From the NCBI GenBank assembly GCA_951828385.1, contig OX639973.1:3525200-3589199 (forward strand): DNA of 64,000 nt, given 5' to 3'. The DNA comes from an uncultured Poribacteria bacterium (GTDB lineage: Bacteria; Poribacteria; WGA-4E; WGA-3G). Below, in pieces: positions 20,760 through 26,424 of this stretch; within the stretch, counting starts at the first letter, position 1; the number at the start of each line of letters is the position of its first letter. Below the pieces are notes generated by a model. It did no database searches, was not told where the DNA came from, and saw only the letters and a program-made list of their open reading frames with translations. The position numbers were made by a program, and so were the translations under genes.

Positions 20760-22796
20760 TTATTTTCCCGGTTCCGTTGCGAGATATTTCGGGTTTGGTT
20801 GAATCGCCGGGGGATAATGAATTTGCCACACTTTGACTCGTGCCTGCGTGAAGTTAGCCGTGGGGTAGACAGGAACAAACGCGTCGCTTAGTTCACCTTG
20901 CAGGAAAACTTCCGGGGGTTGACTTTGTGTTAGCATAAGGTGTGTCGCTTCGTGGGTTTTTAGGAATTCCAACGCGTCTCGTGCATCGGTGGCATCGCGG
21001 ATATGTGTGTTGTAGAGATGGATCCAGTGCTGGATGTAGTGATCCTGATCAATAACGGTTTTGACCCCACCGAGAACGTTCAGTTGACTGCCGAAACTCC
21101 ATCTTGCAGCGACAACAGCAGTGTGTGACAGTTCCGTTTTCATCCACGCAAACGCCTTTGCAACCGGGGAATCTCCGGGCTTGGCTTGGCGCATCTCTGT
21201 TGCGGCGAAAACTGAGCGTTCCGCGTGTTCCCCAGCGGGTCTCCAATACATGAGGGAAGCAACGAGAACGACAGCAATACCAACTTTTATGACACGCAGC
21301 GGCAGCTTTTCCCTGAAGTTTGCACTCAGGAATCGTGTGTTTTTGAGATTTTCAGTTACAGACAACCCGACACGGTGTATCAGTTCAGTGGAAAAGAACG
21401 CAATGGGAAGTCCGATAAAAAAGTCGTAGCGTTTCGCATCTCGGGAAAGCGATACCCAGAGAAGAAACCAAACAGCCATCGCAATATAGACAAGTTCTCG
21501 TTTTGGTGCTTCGCGTTGCCGCCATGCAATGAAGAGAAGCACAAGTGCCATGCATCCAAGCGATGCGAAAAAGAGGATGCTACCCCCAGACGCGCCTAAC
21601 AGGGTCTCAAGTCGCGCTTGAAAAAAGGTGGTGAGCATGAACAGAAATATAAACACCGCTAACACCGTGCCGCTGTTTTTCCAGAGACGAATGCTGACAC
21701 TCATGAATCCAAGACTGCTCAAGAAAAAGAGACTGCCGTATCGGAACACCCAATATCTGTAATCCGGTATGTTGAGTTCTCCCACGGTTTGCATCAGTTG
21801 GTTTTGACTTAGAGGAACGGTGCTGATTGCGAAGGTGTCAAATTGCATCAACACGTATCCAAGTGCCAGGGCAAGGCTCGCGAGTGTTAATCCCAGGGAG
21901 AGGTTTCTGGCGTGTGGGCGGAATGTATCCGCAAACGGTGATTTTGTGATCAAAACGTGCCGAAGGGCACGAATCCCTAATAGAACGAGTGGTGGCATCA
22001 GCACAAAAGCAAAGAGATGCGTTGCGAAGCCCTCTCCACTCCGATAGGCAGGTGATGCAAGGTAGAGCGTCGGTACGAAGGTACATACCCAGAGAAGATA
22101 TAACCGTAGCCCCTCTTCCTTTTCAGATGTGAGGAATCTCCAGAGTTCAATACACAAGATGACGCTAAGGAAAACGCCGAAGCCTTCCCAACTGATACCA
22201 CCGAGAAAGACGGTAAAGCCACTGGCGAGCGTCCACAAAAATCGGCTGCGCGGGCGTTGGACGTGTAGGGAAACGAGATAGGTTGTGCCGGCGAGAATGC
22301 CGAGCATGAGACACCAACTGTCCCTATCACTGAATCCGGCGGCACTGCGTTCAACAATACCGGGGAGGGTTGCCAAAAGCACGCCAACGATGCTTGAAAA
22401 GAGCAATCCAAAGTTCCGATAAAGGAAGAAACAGAGGACACCCAATCCTAACAGAAAACAGACAACAGGTGCGAAGAGTGCTACCTGATAGAGTGAGACG
22501 TTGCGAAAGATGAGCGTTATTACCTTGTGCGTGTAAGCAATAGCATAAGAATAGGCATTTAGCGTCTGCCCCAGGTCCCTACCAATGGGGAGCCAGCGGT
22601 GCATATCGCGTGCGGGTAGCCAACCGTTCTCAGACACGATCTGTGCTTGCCAATAGTATAGATAAGGATCGTTTCCTGTAAATTGTCCCTCCGGAATATT
22701 AGGAACACCGTGAATACGAATCCAGAAAGCGACGAATAAAATAACACACAAAAGTAACCAAGGGCTAAAACGTACTATTTTTTGTAAAGTATTCAT
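20760..22796 (-). CDS. STT3/PglB/AglB-like oligosaccharyltransferase family membrane protein
   Basis: 678 residues: about 13 N-terminal membrane helices, then a ~170-residue soluble C-terminal domain, the layout of STT3 proteins. Residues corresponding to the PglB active site are visible: N42-D43-P44 in the first loop, R150, D157-R-D159 (same spacing as PglB R147/D154/D156), and TVGE340 matching TIQE319. SRDAKRYDFF precedes the last helices as in the family. The acceptor-binding WWDYG is replaced by RWSFG (565-569), followed by GGVKTVIDQDHY as the usual GxxTTxxDNNTW. It could transfer a lipid-linked glycan to protein or be a diverged GT-C enzyme. It starts 8 bp after the permease gene. Confidence 0.72.
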   Translation of the reverse strand: MNTLQKIVRFSPWLLLCVILFVAFWIRIHGVPNIPEGQFTGNDPYLYYWQAQIVSENGWLPARDMHRWLPIGRDLGQTLNAYSYAIAYTHKVITLIFRNVSLYQVALFAPVVCFLLGLGVLCFFLYRNFGLLFSSIVGVLLATLPGIVERSAAGFSDRDSWCLMLGILAGTTYLVSLHVQRPRSRFLWTLASGFTVFLGGISWEGFGVFLSVILCIELWRFLTSEKEEGLRLYLLWVCTFVPTLYLASPAYRSGEGFATHLFAFVLMPPLVLLGIRALRHVLITKSPFADTFRPHARNLSLGLTLASLALALGYVLMQFDTFAISTVPLSQNQLMQTVGELNIPDYRYWVFRYGSLFFLSSLGFMSVSIRLWKNSGTVLAVFIFLFMLTTFFQARLETLLGASGGSILFFASLGCMALVLLFIAWRQREAPKRELVYIAMAVWFLLWVSLSRDAKRYDFFIGLPIAFFSTELIHRVGLSVTENLKNTRFLSANFREKLPLRVIKVGIAVVLVASLMYWRPAGEHAERSVFAATEMRQAKPGDSPVAKAFAWMKTELSHTAVVAARWSFGSQLNVLGGVKTVIDQDHYIQHWIHLYNTHIRDATDARDALEFLKTHEATHLMLTQSQPPEVFLQGELSDAFVPVYPTANFTQARVKVWQIHYPPAIQPNPKYLATEPGK

Positions 22797-22804
22797 CAGG
22801 GACT

Positions 22805-24076
22805 TTATATCTCCATTCTAAGTGCGTCAATAGGCGAAAGCCGTGCTGCCCGTATAGCGGGGTAGACCCCGAAACTCATGCCCATGAAAACCGAAAAGAA
22901 AACAGAAGTTAGCATCCAAGGTAAAGAAAGAACAACAGGCCACTCCGGCACAATTGGGACGATCCGAACAGCAAGGCGTGCCATGCCGTGCGCTGCTAAC
23001 CAACCCCCCCCAATGCCAAAAACTCCGCCGCAGAAACAGAGGCATACCGATTCGGTTAAGAACTGATAGAAGATGTCAATTCGCTTCGCACCAATCGATT
23101 TCCGTAATCCTATCTCTCGTGTCTTTTCACCAACGGAGACGAGGCAGATGTTCATGATACCGATGCCGCCCACAAATAACGAGAAACCCGCAATGCTGCC
23201 CAGAGAAATCCCAACGACCCTTTGGATGTGCTCCAATTGCCGAATAGAACGGTTGGGTAGCCGATAACCGATAAAGTCATCTTTTCCCCGGTGCCTCTTA
23301 CGCAGGACATTTTTAACCGAATCAATGACACTGTAAACGTCTGCGCCTTCTTGAAAAAAGACGGTAAACCTTAGAATATCGTGCTCTCCGGAGAGTCGCT
23401 GTTGGTGTGTTGTTAACGGCACGCAGACAATATCATCCAGTGAGTAGTAGTTATGGAGGCTTCTTCCCTTTGGTGCCATGATACCGACGACACGACACCG
23501 GACCGCGGGGTGTCTCCAACTGAACTTAATTTTCACCTCTTCTCCAATAGCGAATGCTTCCCCAAACAGATCCATAGCAGCTTCTGCACCAAGTATACAT
23601 ACCTGCACACCCGTCTCAATATCATTCTCAGAGAAAAATCGCCCGTGTTGCACCTCCCAATGCATGCCTTGGGCATAGTCGGGTGTCACACCTTCAACAT
23701 AAGTCCGTGTTTGCCTGCCGCGTTGACTGATGATAGTACTCCTCCGGTATCTATCAGCCGCTGTGGGTAAGACAAAAAGAACAGAGGGACATTCTGCCTC
23801 AATTGCAGAAATATCCTCAAACGTGTATCGTTCAGTAGTGCGCCGCACGAGGCGCCCGCGTTTCCAGATAGAAGTGTGCGTATCGAACAGAATTCGGTTA
23901 CCCCCACCAAACTTTTTCAGGTCGTCCGTAATGATTTTTTTCGCACCATCGCCAATAGCTATCATACAAAGCACACTCGCAATCCCAATAGAAATGCCGA
24001 GGATAGATAATCCGGCGCGGAGTCTGTTTTGAGAAAGGTGAACAATACCTGCAGCGATAACATCACGACTTTTCAT
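22805..24076 (-). CDS. MacB/FtsX-type ABC transporter permease
   Basis: 423 residues. First helix near 20-40 (LSILGISIGIASVLCMIAIGDGA), a ~210-residue periplasmic MacB_PCD domain, and three C-terminal helices of the FtsX domain (GSIAGFSLFVGGIGIMNI, VGEKTREIGLRKSIGAKR as the cytoplasmic coupling signature). The C-terminus SFGVYPAIRAARLSPIDALR is typical. Members move lipoproteins, peptides or signals mechanically with a separate ATPase; no ATPase gene is adjacent. It overlaps the WD40 gene by 14 bp and is followed after 8 bp by the STT3-like gene. Confidence 0.88.
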   Translation of the reverse strand: MKSRDVIAAGIVHLSQNRLRAGLSILGISIGIASVLCMIAIGDGAKKIITDDLKKFGGGNRILFDTHTSIWKRGRLVRRTTERYTFEDISAIEAECPSVLFVLPTAADRYRRSTIISQRGRQTRTYVEGVTPDYAQGMHWEVQHGRFFSENDIETGVQVCILGAEAAMDLFGEAFAIGEEVKIKFSWRHPAVRCRVVGIMAPKGRSLHNYYSLDDIVCVPLTTHQQRLSGEHDILRFTVFFQEGADVYSVIDSVKNVLRKRHRGKDDFIGYRLPNRSIRQLEHIQRVVGISLGSIAGFSLFVGGIGIMNICLVSVGEKTREIGLRKSIGAKRIDIFYQFLTESVCLCFCGGVFGIGGGWLAAHGMARLAVRIVPIVPEWPVVLSLPWMLTSVFFSVFMGMSFGVYPAIRAARLSPIDALRMEI

Positions 24077-26111
24077 TTTGTAGATAACGCTTCATATCCC
24101 ACAAGAGAATGGTGCCATCGAAACTTGCACTTGCCAAAAGTGTGTTATCTCGAGAAAAGGCGAGACATTGAACATCTGTCGGATGTCCAGTGAGTGTGGC
24201 GATAATTTCCCATGTGGCAACTTCCCACAACTGGATGGGGGCTCTCTCTCCAGCATACCACCAAGAACCAGAGGCTAAATACCGACCACAAGATGAAAAC
24301 GTTAGCGCAAACGGCTGCCGACATTCATGTGGCGGAAGTATCGCCATGAGGAGTTGGTAGGTTGTGGCATCCCACAACCGAATCTCGTTGTGCATTCCAC
24401 CGACAATGATACTCCCACAGGGTGAAAAAACAACTGCTTCCATTGGAATAGGATGATAGGCTGTGTCTCCTCTGATGTGTCTGTTACGCTGCAACCGAAG
24501 TTTACGCTGTTTTTGCTCGGCATCCCCGACATAGCGTTCTGCTTCCAAAGTTAGATCAAACGGTGCTAATGGAAGTGTAGCAATCTCTTTGCCAGAATCA
24601 ACATCCCAGACCCGAGCGGTTCCATCGGTTGAACCACTCACCAGCCGTTTTCCATCTGGATCAAACACCAAGGACCGAATTAAACGGGTATGCCCCAACA
24701 AAGTCGTCTGTTTTCCCTGCGTATCCCATACATATATTTTCCCTTCTGTATCCCCACTCGCAAAAGGCTCACCAAGGGGTGCGAAGGCAAAGGTCCGAAC
24801 GAATTCTTGATGTCCAGCAAAGGTAACGATTGTCTCGTCGGTATCAACATCCCATACAAGGAGTCTGTTTTCAATGCTACCAATAGCGCGGATGCTACCC
24901 GTTGGTGAGATATAGACTGAACGAATTGTTGTATTTGGGCGGACAATTGCCCGCTGTCGTCGTTTTTCGGCAACATTCCAACAGATGGCCTCTGGAGAGT
25001 CAACGCTCACTAATGTCTGCCCATCGGGTAAAAACTCCACGAAGTGTGGATAGTGAACTTCTCTGGAAATAGAAGCGACAGCGCGAGAATTATCCATATC
25101 CCACATTTTGATATCCCGTTCGGTTGCGAAAATCAGAGCCGATTTCAATCTGCCCCCAGACGGTGATTTTTCAGTTAAAAAGCGTAGAACATCAACACCC
25201 CCATGAGAATCAAAAGTGTTAAGTTTCTCATCAGTTTTCACATCCCAGACGGTGAGTGTGGATTGATGCACACCAGCAGCAAGAAGGCTTCCTGACCCTG
25301 AGTAAGTCGGCATTATCTGTCGATATTCAGGATATGAGAACTCCCTCATCTGGGTACCTGCGGTAACATCCCACTCTCGCAAGGTGCCGCCCGACAAATC
25401 ACCTGCGGCAAGGTATTTTCCACACGGCGAAAAGTTAAGCGCATATACCCGTGCTGTATGTCCTTTAAGGGAAGCAATCTGTTCACCTGTTTCTACATGC
25501 CACACCGAGATGAAATCGGCGGTGCCTTCTATATCCGCCGGAGTTGGACAGGCGAGGAGCTGCCCATCATCGGAAAAGCAGAGAGGACGCGGAACACCCC
25601 CTTGCCATCGGACTGTTATGTCGGGGTCGGCTTGGAACTCGGCAATCTGCTCTCCTGTTTCGGCATGCCAAAGATGAACGATACCGATGAGCGGCTCAGA
25701 AGTGGCGATGTACTGACTGTCATTGGAAAAGACAACCCGGCTCAGTCTCGATCTAAATCTAACTTTTGAAGATTCAATTCGGGTAATGCTTGTCCCTCGA
25801 TCAACGTCCCATACCTTAAGGGTCTGGTCACGGTTGCCAATGGCAAGCCATTTGCCATTTGGAGAAAAATTGAGGCGGCAACTCATCCCCCGCTCCGTTT
25901 CCCACAAATGGGTGGGAGTCATCGTTGAAAGTTCATACAACCATACTCCGATACAGGTGGCAACAACCAGCGTCTTCCTATCTGGCGAAAGCGCGAGATC
26001 TTCCACATATCCTCGTCCAAAACGGATTATAGCCCCCTCTGGGAGTGCCCACGTACGGACTTCCTTATTTATTTCGTCTGCACTCTGAATGTGCACAGTT
26101 TGGTTTTCCAC
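24063..26111 (-). CDS. Large WD40-repeat protein
   Basis: 682 residues with about 12-14 WD40 blades. Examples are LNFSPNGKWLAIGNRDQTLKVWDVD, LVFDPDGKRLVSGSTDGTARVWDVD and LAFSRDNTLLASASFDGTILLWD. No signal peptide or kinase domain: a cytoplasmic double beta-propeller scaffold. GTG start at 26111 with AGAGGAG upstream. It is the first gene of a three-gene unit with the MacB-type permease (14-bp overlap) and the STT3-like protein, so it may organise or regulate that membrane complex. Confidence 0.88.
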   Translation of the reverse strand: MENQTVHIQSADEINKEVRTWALPEGAIIRFGRGYVEDLALSPDRKTLVVATCIGVWLYELSTMTPTHLWETERGMSCRLNFSPNGKWLAIGNRDQTLKVWDVDRGTSITRIESSKVRFRSRLSRVVFSNDSQYIATSEPLIGIVHLWHAETGEQIAEFQADPDITVRWQGGVPRPLCFSDDGQLLACPTPADIEGTADFISVWHVETGEQIASLKGHTARVYALNFSPCGKYLAAGDLSGGTLREWDVTAGTQMREFSYPEYRQIMPTYSGSGSLLAAGVHQSTLTVWDVKTDEKLNTFDSHGGVDVLRFLTEKSPSGGRLKSALIFATERDIKMWDMDNSRAVASISREVHYPHFVEFLPDGQTLVSVDSPEAICWNVAEKRRQRAIVRPNTTIRSVYISPTGSIRAIGSIENRLLVWDVDTDETIVTFAGHQEFVRTFAFAPLGEPFASGDTEGKIYVWDTQGKQTTLLGHTRLIRSLVFDPDGKRLVSGSTDGTARVWDVDSGKEIATLPLAPFDLTLEAERYVGDAEQKQRKLRLQRNRHIRGDTAYHPIPMEAVVFSPCGSIIVGGMHNEIRLWDATTYQLLMAILPPHECRQPFALTFSSCGRYLASGSWWYAGERAPIQLWEVATWEIIATLTGHPTDVQCLAFSRDNTLLASASFDGTILLWDMKRYLQNEKS

Positions 26112-26138: not shown

Positions 26139-26272
26139 AGGACTTACGCAAAAGAGTTGACATGATTTCTATATAGGACTTACGCAAATTTAGCACACAG
26201 TGCGGTATTTTGGTATATTTAACCCCCTAAATCCCCTTATCAGGGAACTTTAAGAGAAAATACGTAAGCCCT
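26139..26272. repeat. MITE-like element bounded by GGACTTACGCAAA repeats
   Basis: AGGACTTACGCAAA occurs at 26139 and again at 26175. An imperfect inverted copy (TACGTAAGCCCT) ends at 26272. Between lies CCCCCTAAATCCCCTTATCAGGG. A further GCGTAAGTCC is at about 6103. The organisation resembles a non-autonomous mobile element or its remnant; no transposase is present. Confidence 0.45.
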
Positions 26273-26273
26273 A

Positions 26274-26424
26274 AAGATCTTTATCAGTAGAACCACCACA
26301 TACGCCATCACATTCGCGACACTCACTTTGGTTTTTCCGTACAACAGCCGTCAGTCCCCCCAGAGCATTTAATAAGATCTTTATCAGTAGGACCACCACA
26401 TACGCCATAACACTCGCGACACTT
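26274..26424 (-). repeat. 52-bp direct duplication, offset 100 bp, at the end of the Cys-rich gene
   Basis: Segments 26274-26325 and 26374-26424 differ at only about four positions and lie exactly 100 bp apart. 100 is not a multiple of three, so the downstream copy is out of frame with the gene that contains the upstream copy. Confidence 0.85.

Follow-up and report, generated by a model that had tools for sequence, protein, structure and literature searches.

To our knowledge, every oligosaccharyltransferase (OST) characterised to date is believed to require a pocket built from the WWDYG and DK/MI motifs, and N-glycosylation sites take the form N-x-S/T because of this pocket. The Ser/Thr pocket is formed by the Trp-Trp-Asp part of WWDYG together with a DK/MI residue carried by a kinked helix, and has been described as common to all OST enzymes (PMC3703281, PMC8342417). 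The protein described here, P0001, shares with the STT3, AglB and PglB enzymes (GT66) the fold, the EL1 Asp, the EL2 DxD motif, the EL5 Glu, the conserved Arg and the position of the WWDYG helix. However, its family lacks the WW pair and usually the Asp of that motif, its short forms lack the DK/MI kinked helix, and P0001, one of several copies in its genome, lies in an operon-like module with a small Cys-rich peptide and falls under the curated STT3 cut-offs. The shortest known OST soluble domains are those of Archaeoglobus AglB-S1 and AglB-S2 (PMC3703281), with which P0001 has a reduced C-terminal domain in common, but these enzymes retain WWDYG and a DK-variant kinked helix, both of which are missing in P0001.

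Two further systems invite comparison. The DPY19 C-mannosyltransferases have a GT-C fold in common with P0001 (TM-score 0.62), but are a weaker match, with an E-value behind those of STT3, AglB and PglB, and are absent from the sequence matches, while P0001 has the DxD and Glu of STT3. Glycocin transferases are cytosolic GT2 enzymes that operate with C39 exporters. Glycocins of the sublancin and enterocin F4-9 type (PMC8620827) nevertheless resemble the module described below in that a leader-bearing Cys peptide is combined with its own glycosyltransferase, although in the module the glycosyltransferase is a polytopic GT-C protein and the permease is of the MacB type. No record of STT3 in Poribacteria, and no published description of a module of this composition, was found in the literature searched.

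Identity and catalytic residues of the STT3-like protein

The window, i.e. the whole 64,000-nucleotide stretch of DNA that was analysed, lies inside a complete 6.66-Mb contig of Candidatus Poribacteria, and all genes, motifs and codons located on it below are on the reverse strand. P0001 is an STT3-like (GT66-fold) membrane glycosyltransferase of the short form (678 aa, ATG start, 20760..22796), and the loci related to its gene in GTDB genomes were all from Candidatus Poribacteria. The source genome contains six STT3-like genes, most genomes of the genus have retained the family, and a dN/dS of 0.12-0.20 against 12 orthologues is indicative of purifying selection on the open reading frame.

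Searched alone against the PDB with phmmer, P0001 gave a best match of only E=0.72, and a family profile of 52 relatives was required, which, from sequence only, matched human STT3A at E=1.4e-17 and also matched yeast Stt3. The archaeal STT3 model TIGR04154 matched P0001 at 2.9e-14 with 52 bits, below the curated cut-off of 450, and an HMM scan found no Pfam STT3 match in P0001, the PF02516 model being passed by some of its long paralogues. The AF2 model (pLDDT 91.4, pTM 0.92) contains approximately 13-14 long membrane helices and a C-terminal soluble, periplasmic domain, in agreement with the 13 transmembrane segments plus soluble domain of the preliminary description. In a fold search of the PDB the model was ranked closest to AglB (E 3.8e-14), human STT3 (STT3A TM 0.64) and yeast Stt3, followed by PglB and DPY19. 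Based on the profile matches and the predicted fold, P0001 is therefore assigned to the STT3/GT66 fold and not to another GT-C family, which upholds its earlier identification as STT3/PglB-like against the possibility that a different GT-C family was involved.

The profile alignment placed the family sequence ERSAAGFSDRD on SRSVAGSYDNE of human STT3A, the VGEL stretch on SVSE, and R456 on a conserved Arg of STT3A and yeast Stt3 which we take to be phosphate-binding. In the genus-level family of 80 relatives, D43, R150, D157, R158, D159, E340, R456, G569, N573, T580 and D583 were invariant. These include D43 (codon 22668..22670), aligned with the EL1 catalytic or metal-binding Asp of STT3, R150 and the EL2 DxD motif D157-R158-D159 (22320..22349), and R456 (codon 21429..21431). 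The EL5 motif, of the TIXE/SVSE type, reads T337-V338-G339-E340 (TVGE, 21777..21788) and ends in the catalytic Glu; position 337 was Thr in 33 and Ser in 23 of the 80 relatives (56 together), with Val or Ile at 338 in 66. As the TIXE motif of AglB pairs with the backbone of the acceptor (PMC8342417), its partial retention keeps a peptide acceptor plausible for P0001.

The reading frame, the residues D43, R150, D157, D159 and E340, and RWSFG at 565-569, all reported previously, were confirmed on re-reading the sequence. The claim that these residues have the same spacing as in PglB was correct for the distances from the Arg to the DxD motif (7 and 2 residues) but not for the wider ones, which are 107 residues from 43 to 150 and 181 from 159 to 340, against 91 and 163 in PglB. 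That the five residues meet in one site is predicted from the alignment and the fold match, and P0001 would accordingly appear to be a catalytically intact STT3-fold glycosyltransferase.

Absence of the +2 Ser/Thr pocket

When the family profile was aligned with STT3A and yeast Stt3, a family consensus of xWxxG fell exactly on WWDYG, and in P0001 this position is occupied by RWSFG (residues 565-569, 21090..21104). The second Trp and the Gly of the motif were strongly conserved (W566 in 78/80, G569 in 80/80 relatives), whereas position 565 was N, H, D, R, S, K, G, E, T, A or P and in no case W, and position 567 was mainly S, G or N, with D in 5/80. By variability, the two columns ranked within the top 16% and 11%, respectively. 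The motif read RWGFG, GWSYG, GWSSG, SWNYG, DWGFG or EWGFG in orthologues at 74-92% identity, so that RWSFG could be ruled out as a conserved alternative motif. L090, L092 and L093, relatives that belong to other families within the class, kept WWDYG, and a separate WWDYG-type STT3 (L097) was carried by a single genome of the same genus; none was found in the source genome. Because positions 565 and 567 vary among the relatives while the outgroups keep WWDYG, the state seen in the window is, as judged from the alignment, a loss of constraint at two pocket residues and not a new motif. The preliminary description was thus right that RWSFG occupies the WWDYG position, but no substitute motif has replaced it. 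In another family of the class, a short STT3-like protein reads RWGVG (L096:2434-4518, reverse strand), and the pocket may have been lost there independently.

The second component of the pocket was affected by a difference in length. Directly behind the strand THLML, the WWDYG outgroups and the long paralogues of approximately 800 aa contain some 120-150 additional residues, at a point corresponding in P0001 to a junction at residues 624-637 (20886..20927), located from the alignment and the models. In the model of a long paralogue (L006) this region forms a kinked helix (617-622, 624-631) followed by beta strands, while the model of P0001 passes from a strand at 619-623 through a low-confidence loop into a strand at 640-644, with no kinked helix of the DK/MI type. 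Short forms occurred in several places in the tree, which required seven length changes, at least five of them forced by starred branches, albeit in a quick search with long outgroup branches, and a single origin of the short form was rejected.

On the combined alignment and model, the +2 Ser/Thr pocket, consisting of the WWD residues and the DK/MI helix, is absent from P0001 while the catalytic residues are invariant. Since both the WWD part and the whole kinked helix are missing, acceptor recognition by P0001 would have to differ from that of known OSTs, as had been suggested from the motif. A large natural family that has lost the pocket and kept the catalytic residues would offer a direct test of whether catalysis depends on the pocket or only site selection does, and allow the question of which acceptor serves in its absence.

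The operon-like module and its peptide

The STT3-like gene is the last of four genes in the order peptide, WD40, MacB, STT3, on one strand, an arrangement shared by the window and many other loci and genomes. The STT3-like gene is preceded, at a distance of 8 bp, by the gene of a MacB_PCD/FtsX permease without an ATPase domain (22805..24076; PF12704, PF02687), and the permease gene overlaps that of a WD40 beta-propeller protein of 682 aa with no evident signal sequence (24063..26111). The first gene encodes P0002 (26323..26700), a Cys-rich leader peptide of 125 aa with 17 cysteines and a membrane segment in its leader, considered here as the candidate acceptor. The module thereby combines, in the manner of a RiPP or glycocin-like system, a conserved leader, a variable Cys core and a linked glycosyltransferase. 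A second such module was present in the source genome (L084), with an STT3 copy reading NWDYG. The TRAP and SSF transporter genes downstream in the window were rejected as module partners and treated as incidental, as just 2 of the 11 orthologous loci retained them.

P0002 matched no Pfam or NCBIfam family, and homologues were found in 18 of 60 relatives searched, all of the same genus. These share a leader of approximately 42 residues with a membrane segment (MxRNFFxxPNxIGRLMIxLLFxGGVVxAGAFDGFVVETEAS), followed by variable cores, commonly with 16-17 cysteines. P0002 contains no Trp. It also contains no N-x-S/T in its whole sequence, and would therefore not be expected to undergo canonical N-glycosylation; N-x-S/T is present in some of its homologues. 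Directly past the P0002 stop codon its tail is repeated (26271-26323, 19 residues at 74% identity), which may be a trace of duplications that diversify the core.

In comparisons of the window with orthologous modules, the leader was 60-86% and STT3 72-83% identical, while in eight of nine such modules the core was only 34-46%, WD40 at most 42% and MacB 59-68% identical. In this small sample, the sole module keeping the whole cassette was that of G017 (core 69, WD40 84 and MacB 89%). The joint divergence of core, WD40 and MacB and the joint conservation of leader and STT3 suggest, at the level of sequence, that the WD40 and MacB proteins may go with the variable core and that the enzyme may work with the constant part.

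Variation in gene content was also observed. The WD40 slot was occupied at three loci (L044:761-1567, L186:4887-5672 and L191) by an unrelated protein of approximately 265 aa with no confident Pfam match, and an optional His-rich, outer-membrane-like protein of approximately 350 aa was seen between MacB (or WD40) and the glycosyltransferase (L044:2749-3807, L176:7747-8805 and L087:7372-8397), with no Pfam match for the L044 and L176 copies.

Glycosyltransferase families occupying the slot

Across 27 peptide modules, L046 included, readable as far as the glycosyltransferase slot, using simple ORF calling on partly fragmented genomes, the slot contained an STT3-like gene in 20, a PMT_2-family GT-C gene by Pfam in five (L174, L176, L180, L196, L198), a PMT remnant in one (L175) and neither in one (L194). 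A GT-C gene was thus found in 25 of 27 modules, counts that are non-independent owing to shared descent of the modules, though the slot changed glycosyltransferase family more than once. The complete source genome has 16 GT-C genes of these kinds (six STT3-like and ten PMT_2), and each of its four peptide genes had one of them at most 6 kb downstream on the same strand, for which a simple proportion gives our estimate of chance as about 3e-9. It is mainly because either PMT_2 or STT3 fills the slot beside the peptide genes that the STT3-like enzyme is thought to act as a glycosyltransferase in the module.

Some of the PMT_2 modules contained additional genes. Downstream of PMT_2, both L174 and L176 encode a GT2 as well as an LPG-synthase-TM-type protein, and L180 the LPG-synthase-TM-type protein only. 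At L174 (760000-776000 in the source genome), the peptide module is joined in a row by the PMT_2 GT-C, a GT4, the GT2, the LPG-synthase-TM-type protein, a methyltransferase and a second GT-C, and likely represents a complete glycan-transfer cluster acting on a Cys-rich peptide.

Proposed role of the enzyme and alternatives

The preferred explanation, to which a probability of about one half is given, is that P0001 represents a dedicated extracytoplasmic glycosyltransferase that modifies the Cys-rich peptide of its own module without recognition of a sequon; the chemistry, donor and acceptor are inferred. P0002 would cross the inner membrane and be presented to the enzyme, probably via the constant leader or leader-proximal region. 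The glycan would then be moved by the enzyme from its polyprenyl-(pyro)phosphate donor onto the peptide, possibly to an Asn amide without the +2 requirement or to a Ser/Thr hydroxyl. The donor would be made elsewhere in the genome, where four PF02397 polyprenyl-phosphate sugar transferases are candidates, and the permease and WD40 protein might subsequently have a part in exporting, releasing or recognising the variable core. With enzyme and acceptor paired in one operon, there would be no need for a general reading of N-x-S/T, and this would account for the +2 pocket having been lost. Against this explanation, the STT3-type modules carry no genes for donor synthesis, the permease has no ATPase in the module, and several STT3-like genes lack a neighbouring peptide of the P0002 family. 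Should the operon peptide prove to be the acceptor, dominant sponge symbionts would possess a new kind of secreted peptide that is both glycosylated and disulfide-rich, with a possible use in sequon-free glycosylation in engineered bacteria.

Alternatively, the enzyme could act on a target different from the peptide, for instance the envelope. The enzyme might then glycosylate a lipid, polysaccharide or surface protein and confer self-immunity against the cell's own Cys-rich toxin peptide, the slot having no part in maturation. Pairing with a hypervariable secreted peptide and the interchangeability of GT-C families would fit this too, as would the conservation of STT3 and leader while core, WD40 and MacB vary. 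However, a specific immunity protein would usually co-vary with the core, which the glycosyltransferase does not, and the motif expected to contact a peptide backbone is partly kept. We also know of STT3 enzymes only as peptide or protein transferases, and self-immunity was considered unlikely.

Replacement of STT3 by PMT_2 genes, annotated as Dol-P-Man-type, together with the GT2 genes in two modules and the DPY19 match (E=9e-9), would be compatible with C-mannosyl or O-linked transfer to the peptide by a GT-C enzyme using a polyprenyl-monophosphate sugar in place of a lipid-linked oligosaccharide. This was judged distinctly unlikely, as both the sequence profile and the best fold matches are to STT3 and AglB instead of DPY19, the STT3-type DxD and EL5 Glu are invariant, and P0002 contains no Trp.

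That P0001 is an ordinary N-linked oligosaccharyltransferase whose pocket has degenerated but which still modifies N-x-S/T in many proteins appears very unlikely despite the STT3 fold, the fully invariant catalytic residues, the T/S-V/I-x-E motif of most members, the retention of W566 and G569, and the sequons of some homologous peptides. The loss of W565 and D567 is family-wide, short forms have dispensed with the kinked helix, the source genome has no WWDYG-type STT3 and P0002 no sequon, and six dedicated copies accompanying peptide operons are unlike a general system. Decay of the family into pseudoenzymes or acceptor-less lipid-linked oligosaccharide hydrolases, which gene fragments in the genome and the missing pocket might indicate, is highly improbable given the dN/dS of 0.12-0.23, the catalytic residues fully invariant in 80 sequences and the retention of the family by most genomes of the genus.

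Extending the preferred explanation of a dedicated peptide-modifying enzyme, it is tentatively proposed that Poribacteria possess undescribed secreted glycopeptide systems, in which hypervariable Cys-rich leader peptides, both of the P0002 family and of unrelated small Cys types, are each paired in an operon with their own extracytoplasmic GT-C enzyme, either a sequon-freed STT3-fold or a PMT-type protein. If so, STT3 would have become a dedicated peptide-maturation enzyme instead of a general oligosaccharyltransferase.

Small peptides and other genes near STT3-like loci

A survey around 44 STT3-like genes for short ORFs that combine an N-terminal membrane segment with a Cys-rich tail found 26 upstream on the same strand, two downstream and none on the opposite strand. 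Some of the upstream ORFs belonged to families unrelated to P0002, for example those encoding 82-85 aa with six cysteines (L055, L057, L060, L062, L064). No member of the P0002 family was found near the STT3-like genes L083, L085 and L086, and others had different small peptides or none that could be recognised. A different type of module was observed at L055, L057, L060, L062 and L065, consisting of a small six-Cys peptide, then three membrane or secreted proteins without a Pfam family (cl2, cl8, cl9), and then an STT3-like gene. A type IV pilin or other Pfam-known neighbour beside the other STT3 clades was rejected, as neither the small peptides nor cl2, cl8 and cl9 gave any match.

Homologous proteins were encoded immediately upstream of the STT3-like gene at two loci (L053:401-2785 and L071:2293-4581), the second of which matched Pfam C39 peptidase and DUF1573, with a weak LolA-like match. 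Finally, STT3-like fragments were located directly upstream of an intact copy in the source genome (G000:C1:3941624-3942042, L087), indicative of gene decay beside paralogue turnover.
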